Source: Bacteroidales bacterium
Lineage (GTDB): Bacteria > Bacteroidota > Bacteroidia > Bacteroidales > UBA1556
Direction: 5' to 3'
DNA length: 64,000 bases
Assembly: GCA_023146135.1 (NCBI GenBank)
Contig: JAGLCR010000007.1
Location: 62,001 to 126,000 of the forward strand
The first letter of the stretch is position 1; each line of letters starts with the position of its first letter. Below the pieces are notes generated by a model. That model was not told the DNA's origin, made no database searches, and saw only the letters and a program-made list of their open reading frames with translations. The translations under genes and the position numbers were made by a program. Below are positions 54,556-61,577 of this stretch, one piece after another.

Positions 54556-55911
54556 ATGAAGAAACTTTTATTCATTGCATCCGTTTTATTATTAGTCACA
54601 CAGGCTTGTGTTACCTCACGTAGTTTATCTAAAAAAGGTACAAAACTTGAAGAAGCTGGGCAATATACTGCTGCTGCTGACATGTATTATCAATCCATAA
54701 AAAAGAATCCTAGAAATACAAATGCTCTAATTGGAATGAACCGGACAGGGCAGCGTGTTTTGGCTGATTACCTCCAAGTATTTTCCAAGTATGCTTTGGC
54801 AGAGGATTATAAAAGAGCAACTTATGCGTATATTGATGCTATAACTTATCAGCAAAAAATAAAGGAAATAAATATTGATTTGAAGATCCCTCCAAAACAT
54901 GAAGATAAGTATGAAGAGGTAAAATTGGCATATATTTCTAATTTATATGAGGACGGTTTAAAGTTTATTTCCTTAGAGGAGTTTACCAAAGCAGAGGAAA
55001 ACTTCAACGAAGTATATAAATTTAGTCAGAACTATAAGGATGTTGCGGAATTGAGAAACATTGCTTTCCTAGAGCCATTTTATCGTAAAGCAGAAAGATT
55101 AAAGGATGAAAAGCAGTACCGTGAGTCCTATAATATCTATGCTAAAATATTGGATCGTGTTGGAAATTATAAGGAAACAAGAGATCATCAGGAATATGTG
55201 CTAAGAAAAGGTCAAATACCAATTGCGTTGTCGAGTGTAAAAACCGGTAGATATCGAGCTTATGCAAAAAGCTTTAAGCAATATGTGCTGAGTGCGATAA
55301 TGGATATCAACGACCCGTTTATTCGCATTGTTGATCGTGACGATATTGATAAAGTACTGCAAGAGCAGGATCTAGCACTAAGTGGTAGAGTAAATTCAGA
55401 TCAACAGGTAGAAGTTGGTGAAATTGCGGGAGCCAAATATGCCGTTGTTTTTGATGTGCCTAGTTATGGGATAGTAGAACGACCTCTACGAAAACGTAGC
55501 AAGCCGGCTTTTGAACAATATACTGAGAAATACTATGATAAAGCTGAAGGTAAAACTTCTTATAAAACACTTTATCGAAAAAAAACCTATAGTTTGTATT
55601 CAGCATTTCGAAAGGTTACAATGTCGATTAGCTATAGAATTATTTCGTTAAGTACAGGCGAAGTAATGGGAACTGATATAATAACAAAGGCATATGAATC
55701 AGAGGTATTATATGCAGTATATTCTGGAAATAAATCGAGATTATATCCAAGCAACGATGGTCATGTGAGCACTTCTAGATCCGAATATAATAGTTTGCAG
55801 AGGTTGTTTAAAGGGAATCGTAAACTAGCTTCTCGCGAGGAACTTACTGCCGAAATATATCAAATATCGAGTAAATTAACAGCTGAGAAAATCGTTAAAA
55901 AATTCCAATAA
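54556..55911 (+). CDS. CsgG-like lipoprotein
   Basis: The 451-residue product has a leader with lipobox Cys18 (LLVTQACVTS). The N-terminal half holds TPR-like helices (KLEEAGQYTAAADMYYQSIK, DEKQYRESYNIYAKILDRVG). The C-terminal part has VDRDDIDKVLQEQDLALSGR followed by VGEIAGAKYAVVFDV, near residues 255-300, which is the CsgG/LpoB-type pattern (ERxNLDKVLKEQ... IGxLxGADYxV). CsgG is an outer-membrane secretion pore lipoprotein and LpoB an activator of peptidoglycan synthases; this protein need not have either job. A TAGTTTTG box at 54517-54524 precedes it. The next gene's ATG overlaps its stop codon (TAATG). Confidence 0.78.
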   Translation: MKKLLFIASVLLLVTQACVTSRSLSKKGTKLEEAGQYTAAADMYYQSIKKNPRNTNALIGMNRTGQRVLADYLQVFSKYALAEDYKRATYAYIDAITYQQKIKEINIDLKIPPKHEDKYEEVKLAYISNLYEDGLKFISLEEFTKAEENFNEVYKFSQNYKDVAELRNIAFLEPFYRKAERLKDEKQYRESYNIYAKILDRVGNYKETRDHQEYVLRKGQIPIALSSVKTGRYRAYAKSFKQYVLSAIMDINDPFIRIVDRDDIDKVLQEQDLALSGRVNSDQQVEVGEIAGAKYAVVFDVPSYGIVERPLRKRSKPAFEQYTEKYYDKAEGKTSYKTLYRKKTYSLYSAFRKVTMSISYRIISLSTGEVMGTDIITKAYESEVLYAVYSGNKSRLYPSNDGHVSTSRSEYNSLQRLFKGNRKLASREELTAEIYQISSKLTAEKIVKKFQ

Positions 55912-57284
55912 TGATCAAGCATTTTATTTTCATTTCTATCATTATTCTTTTGTCTGCTTGCGGGGCTTCTAAACTGGCCAAGCAGCGAGCTTTGGAGATG
56001 GAAGCTGCTCCCTCTTGGGTAAAATCTCGCCCAACAACAAGTATATATTATGTTGGAATTGGCAAGGTTAGCAAACTGAGTGATCCAGAGGATTATCAAG
56101 CTATTGCTAAAAGAGCGGCACTTAATGATTTGGCCTCAGAAATAAGTGTTAATATTCAGTCAAATAGTCTTATGTCGTCCTATGAAGATAATGCCGGCTA
56201 TAAATCAGAATTTACGCGATATATTCAAATGGAGATGACCAAAGATTTGGCTGGTTATCAAATGCAAGCTGATTTCGAAACCCAAGATCAGTATATGATT
56301 TATTATCGCTTATCGAAAGTTAAATGGGCTGAAATACAAGCAAAGCGGAAAGCAGATGCTGCTAGCAAAGCGGAAAATCTATTTTTGCAAGGACAAAAAG
56401 AAAAGCAAGAACTTAACTATGCTGCTGCCATAAAATCCTATTTGAATAGCCTTTTGGAATTGAAAAAGTATTGGAATGAAGCTGTATACTATAATGTGAA
56501 TGATGAAAAACGACGTCTTGATTTAGATATTAGACAGAAATTAACTGAAACACTTGCCGATATTCAATTGGTAGTTAAATCTGCCAAAATTGATATTAAT
56601 TTTCAAAATCATTTTAAGAATAATCTTCAAATAGAAGTTGTAAATAGCAAAGGTCAGTTGTTAAAGAATTTTCCCATTAAGATAAGTTATCGTAAAGTGT
56701 CAATCCCTTTCCAGACTGAGATTTATTCCTCAAAGCAAACTTTGAATTTGGTAATTGAAAACGTGATGTATAAGCCTAATTCAATGTATGTGATTATCGA
56801 GATTCAAAAGAATAAAGCTTTACCAATTAAAATAGAAAATAAGTGGTTTTTGAAGTTTGTTAATGATGCTTTTCAAGTAAACCCTATTGAAGTGCCCATT
56901 AATTATCTGCTTCCAAAAATTTATATTGATGATCAAAACAATCAATCTACCTATTATCATTACTTAAAAGACGCTATTCAACAATCATTTGCAAAACAGC
57001 ATTATGGGTTGGTGTTTTCAAAGGAAACCGCAGATTTAATATTTAATATTAAATCTCATGAATCAGTATCTAACACTGATTCACAAGTAAAAACGGCTAA
57101 CTTATCTTATTCCATTGAAGTAAAAAACCAAAAGAAGAATAAGCTTGTTTATACATTTTCTTCAGAAACATATAAAGGAGTAGCTTATACAGCTGAGTCG
57201 GCAAAAGAAAAGGCTTATATAAAAGCATCGGAAGATGTAAACGATAATTCATTTAAGAAACTATTGCAGGAAATAAGAAAGTAG
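55911..57284 (+). CDS. LPP20-family lipoprotein
   Basis: The 457-residue product has lipobox Cys17 (ILLSACGAS). The segment APSWVKSRPTTSIYYVGIGK, with AIAKRAALNDLASEISVNIQ after it, is the LPP20-type domain (cf. FlgT/LPP20 proteins). The region after 160 has a TPR-like helix pair and, from about 220 onward, beta-rich modules with DIQLVVKSAKIDINFQNHFK. Its start overlaps the stop of the CsgG-like gene by one base. Such proteins sit on the outer membrane; the partner is expected to be the CsgG-like protein (inference). Confidence 0.78.
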   Translation: MIKHFIFISIIILLSACGASKLAKQRALEMEAAPSWVKSRPTTSIYYVGIGKVSKLSDPEDYQAIAKRAALNDLASEISVNIQSNSLMSSYEDNAGYKSEFTRYIQMEMTKDLAGYQMQADFETQDQYMIYYRLSKVKWAEIQAKRKADAASKAENLFLQGQKEKQELNYAAAIKSYLNSLLELKKYWNEAVYYNVNDEKRRLDLDIRQKLTETLADIQLVVKSAKIDINFQNHFKNNLQIEVVNSKGQLLKNFPIKISYRKVSIPFQTEIYSSKQTLNLVIENVMYKPNSMYVIIEIQKNKALPIKIENKWFLKFVNDAFQVNPIEVPINYLLPKIYIDDQNNQSTYYHYLKDAIQQSFAKQHYGLVFSKETADLIFNIKSHESVSNTDSQVKTANLSYSIEVKNQKKNKLVYTFSSETYKGVAYTAESAKEKAYIKASEDVNDNSFKKLLQEIRK

Positions 57285-57334
57285 TAATAGTTCATGGAGA
57301 GAATTTCGTCAACTTATTGCTTTTGGCCTATTAA

Positions 57335-57366
57335 TTGCATTAGTCAAGAAACATTGATTAACTTTG
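57335..57366 (+). promoter_or_regulatory. Bacteroidota-type promoter of the third lipoprotein gene
   Basis: TTG at 57335-57337 and TAACTTTG at 57359-57366 are 21 bp apart. The ATG is 46 bp downstream. It suggests the third gene can also be expressed alone. Confidence 0.55.
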
Positions 57367-57412
57367 TAGCACAAACTAAGAACAAAACAATAAATAACTA
57401 AATATTACAATT

Positions 57413-58006
57413 ATGAAAAATTTTACAACTAGAATAAGCCTTATAGCGATGCTCGTTATTAGCGCTTTTGTTATTTCCTCTTGTGGAGGGTCAAAAAAAA
57501 TAGATAAGGATACTGCAGAACGTACTGGTGGCTTCCATGAATTAACACTTCCTTGCGCTGATAAGGGCAAAAGTGACAAAAAGTTTTTTAGAGCAAGCAG
57601 TGTAGGTCACAGTCGTGATTTGGCAACCTCTCGCGAGAAAGCTTTGTTAATGACTAAACAACGTTTAGCTACTTTAATTAATTCAACCCTAAAGTCGGTA
57701 ACAGAACGTTATGCCAACGAAATGGATGCAGGTCAAGGCGGAGAATTTTCTCAAACTTTTGAAAACCTTACTCGCGATGTAGTAAAGCAACAACTATCTG
57801 ATGTAATAATTATTTGTGAGAAAACTGGTCAAAAAGACGATGGTTCTTACGAAACATACATGGCCATAGAAATGGATAAGGATGTTATACTCAAAGGAAT
57901 TAATGCAGGAATTTCACGAGATAAGAAAATGGAAGTGCTTTATGATAAAGAGCGTTTCAAGAAAACTTATGAAGATGAAATGACTAAGATGGGTGGAGGA
58001 AACTAG
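57413..58006 (+). CDS. Small LPP20-like lipoprotein
   Basis: The 197-residue product has a leader with lipobox Cys24 (AFVISSCGGS). The mature part (FFRASSVGHSRDLATSREKA, LLMTKQRLATLINSTLKSV) has the helical repeat seen in LPP20-type domains, followed by VIIICEKTGQKDDGSYETYM. It looks like a shorter relative of the upstream LPP20-family lipoprotein. A strong terminator follows. Function unknown; it lies 128 bp after the LPP20 gene. Confidence 0.72.
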   Translation: MKNFTTRISLIAMLVISAFVISSCGGSKKIDKDTAERTGGFHELTLPCADKGKSDKKFFRASSVGHSRDLATSREKALLMTKQRLATLINSTLKSVTERYANEMDAGQGGEFSQTFENLTRDVVKQQLSDVIIICEKTGQKDDGSYETYMAIEMDKDVILKGINAGISRDKKMEVLYDKERFKKTYEDEMTKMGGGN

Positions 58007-58055: not shown

Positions 58056-58345
58056 AATATACATACCTGAGCAATTGTTGTTTAGTATCCCCTACTATCC
58101 GTAAAAAATCGTTTTGGAATAAATTATTATATCTTTAATCAACCTTTTTAGTAGTTTCGTTGTCTAACAAAAACATTTGATTTTATCAATTGTTTTTGGG
58201 CTGATTTGAAGGCTTTATGAGGTCTTTTTTTGGCGAGTGGTAATTAATTTAGATTTATTAATTTGATAAATATAGTATTTAAGGTGCTTAGAAGTGAGTT
58301 TTCAGGCAACCTTTTTAATGTATATTTATCTTTGGAGAAGATTTG
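58056..58345 (+). promoter_or_regulatory. Upstream region of the ECF sigma operon
   Basis: This AT-rich gap has no gene. The only clear signal is TATCTTTG at 58327-58334, 11 bp before the ATG of the sigma gene. No good TTTG lies at the expected distance, which would fit a promoter recognised by another sigma factor or by the ECF factor itself. Confidence 0.45.
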
Positions 58346-58897
58346 ATGAGTATTGAGACAAAGATACTTGAGGGTTGTGTAAATGATGAACGTGGAGCTC
58401 AAGAGCAGCTTTACCGACATTTTGCACCCACAATGTTAGGTATTTGTCTGAGGTACACCAAGTCGTATGACGAAGCTAGTGATGTAATGCAAGAAGGCTT
58501 TATTAAAGTTTTTGGAAACATCAAACGCTTCCGACAAGAGGGTTCTTTTGAGGGTTGGATAAAGCGTATTATGGTTAATACTGCTTTAAACCATTATCAT
58601 AAAGCACAAAAGTTGAATTCGCATCGTAATATCGATGAGGTTCGTGAAACAGACATTATTGAAGATGATGCTCCTGTGACAAAAACCCGCTTTTCGCAAA
58701 AGGAAATGCTAGATGCTATACAAAAGCTTCCTCAAGGTTATAGTTCTGTTTTTAATTTGTATGTATTTGAAAAATATAAACATAAAGATATAGCAGAAAT
58801 ATTAAACATTTCGGTAAACACCTCCAAATCGCAATTATCGAAGGCGAGGATTTACTTGAAAAAGCTTCTTGCTCAAATAGAGAAAGAACGAAAATAA
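58346..58897 (+). CDS. ECF-type RNA polymerase sigma factor
   Basis: The 183-residue product (start at the ATG at 58346) has region 2 with MLGICLRYTKSYDEASDVMQ and EGFIKVFGNIKRFRQEGSFE, and region 4 with LPQGYSSVFNLYVFEKYKHK and DIAEILNISVNTSKSQLSKA, a helix-turn-helix for the -35 element. There is no region 3, as usual for ECF factors. The anti-sigma gene starts 12 bp after its stop. It should direct transcription of a small envelope-linked regulon and is expected to autoregulate the operon. Confidence 0.94.
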   Translation: MSIETKILEGCVNDERGAQEQLYRHFAPTMLGICLRYTKSYDEASDVMQEGFIKVFGNIKRFRQEGSFEGWIKRIMVNTALNHYHKAQKLNSHRNIDEVRETDIIEDDAPVTKTRFSQKEMLDAIQKLPQGYSSVFNLYVFEKYKHKDIAEILNISVNTSKSQLSKARIYLKKLLAQIEKERK

Positions 58898-58909
58898 GTA
58901 TAAGAATTA

Positions 58910-60472
58910 ATGAAAGAGCATAACGAAATAGATAAATTATTTGAAGAGTCTTTGGGTAACCTTCAGGGTGAACCCTCTGCTGATTCATGGGAAACATTGG
59001 CTACTTCTCTTGATGCTTCTGCCAATGTTGTGCAGGGCAACCGGAAAAGACGTTTCTTTATTTATGCATTTATAGGCACTGTTGCTGCATTGCTTACTTA
59101 TGTATTTTTCTTTAACAAGAATCATAGTCAAAATATTGACTTAAAGAAAATCCAGCAGGTAGAAGTGCCAACTAATAGTGATAAAAATAAAGCAATTGCA
59201 ACAGCTCAGATTGACGGGATACAAGACAATCAATCTAATTCAGTAGAATTGAATTATTCTGAAGCTAATAATGATGTAAGCAAAATATCACCACAAGTTA
59301 ATTCTCAGCCTATTTCATCAAAATCAAATACAACTAAATCAGAATTAAACACAGTCAATAAAAATATTGAAACAAGTTCAAGCCAAGCAGTTTCGAAAGC
59401 GGTAGTTAAAAACACAGCTGTTTCTAATGCAAAACCAATACAAACTCAAGCTATTTTAGTTCCTGCTTCAACACCAAGCAATGCAAACAAAATGCAAACT
59501 AAAAATGCAGTTTACTCTCATGATATTGACTCTTCGTTGGATGTAAGTAATACACAACAACAGTTAGTTGTAACAAAGGAAGCAAGTGCTAGCCAAGGAA
59601 TACAGGCCAAGAAAGTCGTGGAAAATAGTGAGGCAGATGAGAGCTCCTCTAACGCTCCTTCCCCAGGTGGAATTACGGGTATTCATAATTCTACGGGTTG
59701 GTCTTTAGGTGTTTTTGGAGGCCCAGCATATATCAATTCCAACGAAACCTTTGTTGTTGAAGAAGGTCAGCTTCTTTACCAAACAGAGAAAGAGCAAAAG
59801 ATTATAACTCCCAATTTGAGTATAAACATCAATTACCACTATAATAATTGGTTTATAAGAAGTGGAATCGGCTATGCAGAATATGGTGAAAACCGTAGCT
59901 ATTCCAATAAAATAGAAATGCATGACACTTCGGGCTATGCTACTCAATCCATTAATAATTATTATACTTATGACACTACGGGTTGGATTAAGGACCCTGG
60001 GAATTCTAATGTTTTAATCCCTGTATATGATGCAATATTACATAGCGACACTGTTCATTCATGGGTCTCACAAGATAGCCTATACTATGAACACCAAAGT
60101 ATTTATGCACAAAACAGATTTCGGTATATAGAAATTCCCCTAATGCTTGGTTACGAGTTTAGATACAAAAACCTTGGTTTGGAGTTGGCAACAGGAGTTT
60201 CTGTTGGTTTTAGGGTAAATTCATCAGGAAAATTTATGGATTCAAATAATGAACTAGTAAATATTAATTCATCAAATAGTCCCTATTCGAATACTATGAT
60301 GAACTATATTATTACTATTGGAATTAATTACCATATTGGTAATAGACTGTCAATCACTGCTCAGCCTATTTACAAAACCAACTTGAACAGTATTATTAAG
60401 TCTGGTGTAGGTTCAGACATACGCTATAACAATTTAGGTGTAAACCTTGGAATAAACTACATTATTAAATAG
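58910..60472 (+). CDS. Anti-sigma factor fused to an outer-membrane beta-barrel (dual-membrane type)
   Basis: The 520-residue product has a cytoplasmic N-terminal part (1-48, NEIDKLFEESLGNLQGEPSA) fit to bind the sigma factor, one inner-membrane span at about 49-68 (FFIYAFIGTVAALLTYVFFF), a long Ser/Asn/Gln-rich periplasmic linker (about 70-255) and a C-terminal PorT-like outer-membrane barrel (about 256-520; WSLGVFGGPAYINSNETF, FRYIEIPLMLGYEFRYKNL, NLGVNLGINYIIK). One chain would thus cross both membranes. This matches the Dma anti-sigma factors described in Bacteroides thetaiotaomicron. It lies 12 bp after the sigma gene and 13 bp before the T9SS cargo gene. Confidence 0.88.
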   Translation: MKEHNEIDKLFEESLGNLQGEPSADSWETLATSLDASANVVQGNRKRRFFIYAFIGTVAALLTYVFFFNKNHSQNIDLKKIQQVEVPTNSDKNKAIATAQIDGIQDNQSNSVELNYSEANNDVSKISPQVNSQPISSKSNTTKSELNTVNKNIETSSSQAVSKAVVKNTAVSNAKPIQTQAILVPASTPSNANKMQTKNAVYSHDIDSSLDVSNTQQQLVVTKEASASQGIQAKKVVENSEADESSSNAPSPGGITGIHNSTGWSLGVFGGPAYINSNETFVVEEGQLLYQTEKEQKIITPNLSININYHYNNWFIRSGIGYAEYGENRSYSNKIEMHDTSGYATQSINNYYTYDTTGWIKDPGNSNVLIPVYDAILHSDTVHSWVSQDSLYYEHQSIYAQNRFRYIEIPLMLGYEFRYKNLGLELATGVSVGFRVNSSGKFMDSNNELVNINSSNSPYSNTMMNYIITIGINYHIGNRLSITAQPIYKTNLNSIIKSGVGSDIRYNNLGVNLGINYIIK

Positions 60473-60485
60473 AAGAAAGATCAAT

Positions 60486-61577
60486 ATGATTCAAACATAC
60501 ATACAAAAAAGCACTTTTATACTCTCCATAATTCTTCTGTTTGCAGTACCTATGCATGCACAATATTATAAGGCTAGTAAGATTAGCGAAGAGCTTATGA
60601 TTGAGGTTAATAAGCATAATGAGAGTTTGGGCAACGAAAATGATATGTTTTCCGCCTGTCCCCAAGGTGTTAGTGTTTTTGGGCAAGTTTTTCGTGGTAC
60701 GCATAGCGTAGACCACGGTTTTGTTTTTCTTTATTCATACGATTCAATTAATCATACATATTCTTTCTATGACGCTACAGCAATTAAAAAATTGATTAGC
60801 TCAGATGTTAGTTATTATTATTTTGACACTGTTCCTATGGGAGAGTACACTACCATGGCCGTTTTGTCTTCAACTTTGCCCTATTCAGATCAATATGCGC
60901 CAGCCTATTTAGGCAATACCTTTTATTGGACACAAGCAGCACGTTTTATATTAAACGCGCCAGGATATAATTATCCAATTAATCTTAGCGAAGTTGAGCC
61001 TTCAAATGGGCTTAGCTCTATTTCAGGCCGAGTACTTGAAGGTACGTCTAAGTCTCCTGGAGATCCTATTGCAAACATTCCTCTTTATCTTATTGATGAT
61101 AATAGTATTTTGAGGGGCTATACTTATTCTAACTCTTTGGGGAAATACTCTTTTAATAGTTTACCCTATGGTAAATACCAAGTGTATACTAATCTGATTA
61201 ATTATCAGATTAATCCTTCGGTGGCTACAACAACCATCAATGATTTAGACAAAAAGGAAATTAATATTTATATTGGCAATGGAGTTGTTACTTCATTTGA
61301 GGATGGTAGTATTAGTGATATAAAAGCCATTGTTTTCCCAAATCCAACAAGTGGAAACCTTACTTTAGAATTGAGTTTGAAGCAAGAAGAGGTCCTTAAT
61401 ATTAAAGTATATAATGTATTTGGACAACAGGTTAAAACATGTTTGCTCAACACGCATTTTTTAGCTGGTTCTTATTCACAACAAATAGACCTGTCTTCTT
61501 TGTCTCAAGGTGTTTATTACCTTGTTATTGAGGATAAGTCAAAACAATATAAAGCACTTAAGATTATTAGGCAGTAG
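60486..61577 (+). CDS. T9SS-secreted protein with type A C-terminal sorting domain
   Basis: The 363-residue product has a signal peptide (MIQTYIQKSTFILSIILLFAVP, cleavage near MHAQ), an N-terminal domain with VSVFGQVFRGTHSVDHGFVF and GEYTTMAVLSSTLPYSDQYA, a carboxypeptidase-regulatory-like beta domain at about 180-255 (ISGRVLEGTSKSPGDPIANI), and a T9SS type A sorting domain from about 282 (VFPNPTSGNLTLEL, IKVYNVFGQQV, GVYYLVIEDKSKQYKALKI). It should be exported and left on the cell surface or released. It follows the anti-sigma gene by 13 bp, so it belongs to the same operon. Confidence 0.9.
   Translation: MIQTYIQKSTFILSIILLFAVPMHAQYYKASKISEELMIEVNKHNESLGNENDMFSACPQGVSVFGQVFRGTHSVDHGFVFLYSYDSINHTYSFYDATAIKKLISSDVSYYYFDTVPMGEYTTMAVLSSTLPYSDQYAPAYLGNTFYWTQAARFILNAPGYNYPINLSEVEPSNGLSSISGRVLEGTSKSPGDPIANIPLYLIDDNSILRGYTYSNSLGKYSFNSLPYGKYQVYTNLINYQINPSVATTTINDLDKKEINIYIGNGVVTSFEDGSISDIKAIVFPNPTSGNLTLELSLKQEEVLNIKVYNVFGQQVKTCLLNTHFLAGSYSQQIDLSSLSQGVYYLVIEDKSKQYKALKIIRQ

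Follow-up and report, generated by a model that had tools for sequence, protein, structure and literature searches.

The closest described counterparts of the locus studied here are the anti-sigma factors Dma1 and Dma2 of Bacteroides thetaiotaomicron. Deletion of Dma1 and Dma2 frees their sigma factors, and dma2 belongs to a three-gene operon whose other members, located downstream, increase upon loss of dma2 (PMC13088901). As the signal read by Dma proteins, the authors proposed a glycan (PMC13088901). A surface protein with a T9SS sorting domain has been tied to sigma-factor signaling in Porphyromonas gingivalis, where PorA acts upstream of PorXY-SigP; relatives of PorA were reported only in Porphyromonas (PMC7712824). 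In F. psychrophilum, ECF promoters precede genes for T9SS components (PMC9723704).

We analyzed a 64,000-nucleotide stretch of a Bacteroidales genome (hereafter the window; the assembly is 70% complete and comprises 84 contigs). Three ORFs, encoding a sigma factor, a Dma-like protein and a T9SS cargo protein, follow each other head to tail on the plus strand with intergenic gaps of 12 and 13 bp (Table 1). The initial annotation had read them as one operon, in which genes for an ECF sigma factor and for a single chain with head, membrane span, linker and barrel precede a T9SS cargo gene, and both the ORF positions and the profile matches bear this out. The sigma protein is an ordinary ECF factor (Sigma70_r2, E 2.4e-17; Sigma70_r4_2, E 1.3e-14). 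Three lipoprotein-like genes located upstream (54556-58006) look ordinary; the profile matches here are to CsgG (E 7.2e-6) and, weakly, to LPP20. The same genome holds three sigma–Dma loci: that of the window, a locus on contig 23 whose cargo gene is present as a tandem pair, and L163 (L163:7473-11375, contig 67), a second complete sigma–Dma–cargo module that starts ~1 kb to the right of the window end.

Table 1. Positions of the operon and of the predicted parts of its products in the window
Feature	Coordinates	Strand	Basis or remark
ECF-type promoter of the operon, GGCAACC-N16-ATC	58305..58330	+	Starts 41 nt and ends 15 nt before the sigma ATG; predicted from sequence
ECF sigma factor, 183 aa	58346..58897	+	Pfam Sigma70_r2, Sigma70_r4_2 and NCBIfam sigma70-ECF above cut-off
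Putative Dma-like trans-envelope anti-sigma factor, 520 aa	58910..60472	+	Head-TM-linker-barrel by hydropathy and AlphaFold2
Cytoplasmic head, residues 1-46	58910..59047	+	Conserved motif IDxLFxxxLxxxxxxPSxxxWxxI in alignment
Inner-membrane helix, residues 48-68	59051..59113	+	Peak hydropathy 2.11 at residue 50; helical in model
Disordered periplasmic linker, residues 70-258	59117..59683	+	pLDDT <50 nearly throughout
8-strand outer-membrane barrel, residues 260-520	59687..60469	+	AlphaFold2 pLDDT mostly 70-96
Long surface hairpin L2 of the barrel, residues 331-402	59900..60115	+	Longest hairpin; boundaries from one model
T9SS type A surface protein (cargo), 363 aa	60486..61577	+	Putative signal peptide, beta domains, sorting domain
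Cargo ectodomain, residues 60-270, module-specific part	60663..61295	+	Ectodomain matches confined to sigma-Dma loci in genus
Type A sorting domain, residues 283-363	61332..61574	+	PF18962 and TIGR04183

The second protein of the operon has the architecture of the published Dma proteins. Hydropathy reveals only one strong hydrophobic peak, near residue 50, and an AlphaFold2 model built with 21 related sequences places a helix at residues 24-68, a disordered, low-complexity linker that is hardly conserved among orthologues (identity 0.09), and a confident barrel. Structure comparison returned OmpA-type 8-strand barrels as the best matches for this last part (Z 17-18; Z 16-18 over OmpA, OmpW and NspA). 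The Dma profile found no sequence relative among the solved structures of the PDB at E 0.1. The Dma reading of the initial annotation, a single chain with TM segment, linker and barrel, thus agrees with hydropathy and the model, and the strand pattern on which its barrel depended is present as eight OmpA-like strands. By analogy with Dma1 and Dma2, we infer that this protein is an anti-sigma factor whose head probably binds the sigma factor. The head motif is present once in the window protein, and in two or three tandem copies in some relatives (three in L032 and L034; two in L033, L036, L044 and L045). Following standard barrel topology, hairpin L2 of the model is predicted to face the cell exterior.

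The third gene encodes a protein with a clear type A sorting domain (Por_Secre_tail, PF18962, 54.1 bits with a cut-off of 27; TIGR04183, 44.6 bits with a cut-off of 23), and the genome encodes a T9SS (SprA, TIGR04189, 2613 bits with a cut-off of 200). Its N-terminus is hydrophobic, as judged by hydropathy alone on the L163 copy of the window gene. In the AlphaFold2 model, residues ~60-363 mostly have pLDDT >85. A Foldseek search with this model was uninformative, giving low-TM beta-sandwich adhesins and Ig-like proteins, and a comparison of the cargo profile with solved structures returned mainly PKD, sorting-domain and similar generic matches. With 363 aa, the window cargo is shorter than its orthologues (~585 aa) and is devoid of their N-terminal PKD-like part.

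We then asked how regularly a cargo gene accompanies the sigma–Dma pair. All 19 genus loci with a Dma of the window's type are followed by a sorting-domain gene (L043, one of them, has its cargo broken up over two frames). Where cargo-carrying loci have record names, these are of metagenome assemblies. Among 86 loci sampled across the order, 46 have a cargo with the same ectodomain, 10 another sorting-domain gene and 28 none, and two run off the contig. Hence, 56 of the 84 assessable loci, or about two thirds, have a sorting-domain gene behind Dma, a rate that is probably high because most sequences behind the Dma search profile were cargo-linked, and the loci fetched from the order were those with the highest scores. 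In a first-pass comparison within the order, made on a selected sample, such a gene was found behind 71 of 105 Dma barrels versus 29 of 623 ordinary same-strand neighbours (P-value 2e-48). On the sigma-factor tree, the cargo and no-cargo labels are clustered (9 changes versus ~52 with shuffled single labels). No cargo was found in a class-wide sample (0/19 Dma loci), and seven genus loci with another Dma type have no visible cargo gene (L355, L356, L357, L358, L359, L361 and L365, the last being cut by a contig end). The third gene is not there by chance. The initial annotation had called it fixed and proposed counting sorting-domain genes behind sigma–Dma pairs; the count upholds the idea for near relatives, namely the genus loci of this type and most loci in the order, but for the wider family, with its cargo-less class-wide sample and its second genus type, "fixed" is too strong a word.

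Gene orders other than that of the window were also observed. Several of the cargo-less genus loci have a divergent gene with a small lipoprotein-like product. A recurrent cargo-less order consists of Dma, a gene of ~312-337 codons and, where complete, a gene of ~950 codons (L048, L248, L249, L270, L273, L281 and L287); in L048 the ~950-codon gene is uvrA-like by eye. In L089:7938-10613 and L151:3814-6233, a sigma gene of the window's group is directly followed by a T9SS cargo gene, without a Dma between them.

Sorting-domain genes are common in this genome (87 matches), as might suit a cargo gene that merely travels along and is functionally unconnected to the switch, a passenger. The enrichment over ordinary neighbours argues against this, and so does the distribution of the cargo ectodomain. 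When cargo residues 31-275, with the sorting domain left out, were used as a query, four matches were found in the own genome, and each is a cargo gene in one of the three sigma–Dma loci. Likewise, all 22 ectodomain matches from eleven genomes of the genus fall within loci of this kind. Genes of the order found by the ectodomain alone, that is, without reference to Dma, comprise 14 directly behind Dma, six behind another cargo of such a locus, six with no adjoining Dma and three at a contig edge; 20 of the 26 assessable ones are thus Dma-linked and 6 of 26 are not. The ectodomain is exclusive to sigma–Dma loci in the genus, and mostly, though not fully, linked to them in the order.

The promoters provide a further argument. 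Regions upstream of the sigma genes share an ECF promoter-like element, GCAAC-N16–18-(G/A)TC. With the pattern GCAAC-N16..18-NTC, it was located close to the beginning of the sigma gene in all 14 loci of the genus versus 65 of 1492 control genes (4.4%). The sigma ORFs called in L032, L033, L034 and L036 already begin ~30 nt upstream of the promoter; translation there probably starts later, close to where the window gene has its start codon. Additional cargo genes frequently have a promoter copy of their own (12/16 versus 43/742 controls; Fisher test, P-value 9e-12), while first cargo genes directly behind Dma rarely do (3/85), as expected for genes inside the operon. The copies before additional cargo genes suggest that the primary role of the cargo is that of a sigma-factor output, a role absent from the initial annotation. 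They also argue against a passenger gene; on the promoter data and the enrichment over neighbours we reject this candidate explanation, which we disfavour strongly and to which we assign almost no probability. Across the order, the promoter precedes 21 of 45 cargo-linked sigma genes versus 25 of 27 cargo-less ones, and therefore characterizes the sigma group rather than cargo linkage. The narrower pattern GGCAACC-N16-(A/C)TC occurs at 4 sites of the own genome versus 2 for the reversed control, so no wide regulon beyond the module is visible, and the promoter sites examined in the fetched loci led neither to other cargo genes nor to genes of the T9SS.

Promoter copies before additional cargo genes would also be expected if the cargo were only an output. 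The signal sensed by the barrel would then be a different one, for example a glycan or damage to the envelope, and the released sigma factor would respond by making the surface protein. The rise of the downstream genes of the B. thetaiotaomicron dma2 operon upon dma2 deletion, together with the glycan signal proposed by its authors (PMC13088901), is consistent with this, and cargo-less Dmas are common. However, the confinement of the ectodomain to these loci in the genus argues against a cargo that is output only, as does the behaviour of hairpin L2 described below. We consider this reading somewhat doubtful, though it is the most serious of the alternatives.

Hairpin L2 stands out among the loops of the barrel. 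In the closest orthologues, identity is 0.46 for L2, 0.37 for the strands, 0.12-0.22 for the other loops and 0.09 for the linker. At a strand identity of 0.45-0.60, L2 identity is 0.49-0.56 in cargo-linked proteins versus 0.21-0.23 in cargo-less ones, with shuffled loops at 0.20. L2 length does not differ with cargo linkage (medians 58 and 61.5, P-value 0.91). The L2 region is, however, partly conserved in the cargo-less Dma type of the same genus, a point in favour of an output-only cargo, and conservation alone is hence no proof of contact with the cargo. As a mark of cargo linkage, L2 conservation works in comparison with the order and class sets, but it does not separate cleanly from the cargo-less genus type.

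We regard specific co-divergence of L2 with the cargo ectodomain as a stronger sign of possible contact than conservation of L2. Taking as ectodomain a fixed slice before the sorting domain, we found that divergence of L2 is correlated with that of the ectodomain after correction for strands and sigma (68 loci, partial rho 0.45, permutation P-value 0.002), also in a non-redundant set (0.44, P-value 0.001), these P-values being rough because pairs share history and pairwise distances are not independent. The correlation is 0.52 without the genus, and 0.43, 0.54 and 0.74 in the three sigma clusters. As controls, L2 versus the sorting domain and the head versus the ectodomain both gave –0.04, and L1, L3 and L4 are only weakly correlated with the ectodomain (0.17-0.19). 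Within the first sigma cluster, L2 versus the sorting domain reaches 0.38, almost as high as the 0.43 for the ectodomain. Co-divergence that survives correction for strands and sigma, and that does not extend to the sorting domain in the full set, argues against a cargo that is output only. The link drawn by the initial annotation between the barrel and the surface protein thereby gains a tie in sequence, namely that L2 and the ectodomain diverge together; direct contact between the two is what we infer from it.

The initial annotation had also suggested that the barrel might sense a blocked T9SS. In a module that monitors secretion, a jam would leave the cargo in the periplasm, the sensor would detect it there, and the sigma factor would be released. 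PorA, with its proposed feedback with T9SS function (PMC7712824), could serve as a precedent, as could the ECF promoters of T9SS component genes in F. psychrophilum (PMC9723704), and another anti-sigma-like protein of the genus ends in a type B sorting domain. Direct support for such monitoring was not found. The linker is unconserved (0.09); the sorting domain, which is the part handled by the T9SS, does not co-diverge with L2; the module contains no T9SS machinery gene; and the few sites of the narrow promoter pattern, 4 versus 2 in the control, leave no wide regulon in view. We therefore consider secretion monitoring improbable.

The type B-ended protein is sigma-linked and has the same kind of head, while its C-terminal T9SS sorting domain is of type B (CHU_C, E down to 5.6e-18); it occurs in L360, L362, L363 and L364 of the same genus and also in L132, L157, L127, L110, L134 and L136. 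Its genus cluster is conserved and consists of an M16 peptidase, the sigma factor, the type B-ended protein, an M16-like peptidase and a large type B cargo. Because of its cytoplasmic head, the protein cannot be an ordinary cargo, and its type B sorting domain may be a sensor part. A literature search for an anti-sigma factor with a gliding-motility C-terminal domain found no paper.

Overall, the architecture, the gene linkage, the promoter with its repeats before cargo genes and the L2–ectodomain co-divergence are supported by sequence. On balance, we favour an autoregulated module of the Dma kind, with a T9SS surface protein as dedicated output whose ectodomain contacts L2 as the sensor's own product, and hold this to be reasonably probable. 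In such a module, the Dma-like protein would keep the sigma factor on the cytoplasmic side of the inner membrane, repression being assumed from Dma1 and Dma2, and its chain would reach through the periplasm to the barrel in the outer membrane. Upon release, the sigma factor would have itself, the anti-sigma factor and the cargo transcribed from one ECF promoter, and in related loci it would also drive further cargo copies from promoters of their own. The cargo would be exported via the T9SS, and its ectodomain would probably meet L2, so that the cell would read the amount of its own product outside. We favour negative feedback, in which the sigma factor is held as long as cargo is present, but this sign is a guess. 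More tentatively, and with somewhat less than even confidence, we propose that the barrel holding a sigma factor has as its ligand the very surface protein made under that sigma factor. This would be a closed trans-envelope loop with a single protein step, which sets transcription directly and in which sensor loop and ligand co-evolve as cognate pairs.

For Dma-type sensors, a ligand has so far been proposed only as a glycan, and the genome examined here names both a candidate ligand and a candidate binding loop. Should the closed loop be true, a Dma-type sensor would, within the papers searchable, have a candidate ligand for the first time, and T9SS export would be linked to transcription without a two-component system. 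The presence of three sensor–cargo sets in one genome makes cognate and swapped pairs testable side by side. The architecture is that of the published Dma proteins and already known. As far as searchable, mostly non-subscription papers show, what is new is a T9SS cargo that is dedicated to the module, has promoter copies and co-diverges with the sensor hairpin.

Signaling from an outer-membrane protein to an ECF sigma factor is familiar from FecA-FecR-FecI, which relies on two proteins for this, a TonB-dependent receptor and an anti-sigma factor. The present module has a single chain with an 8-strand barrel in their place, shows no FecR or TonB-receptor match in Pfam and does not belong to the FecA-FecR-FecI type. 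It shares with the PorA–PorXY-SigP system of Porphyromonas gingivalis a T9SS sorting-domain surface protein tied to an ECF sigma factor, but the PorA signal passes via a two-component system and a further link to the outer membrane, with no barrel anti-sigma factor. The likeness is closest to Dma1/Das1 and Dma2/Das2 of Bacteroides thetaiotaomicron. As here, an ECF sigma gene adjoins the dma gene, and Dma1 and Dma2 combine an N-terminal anti-sigma part, one membrane helix, a long disordered tether and a C-terminal barrel. The dma2 gene also lies in a three-gene operon, whose downstream genes are raised by dma2 deletion; its third gene is BT_1557 (DUF4943), whereas here this position is taken by the T9SS cargo. 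The module differs further from Dma1 and Dma2 in its additional cargo genes with promoter copies and in a sensor hairpin, L2, that co-diverges with the cargo ectodomain.
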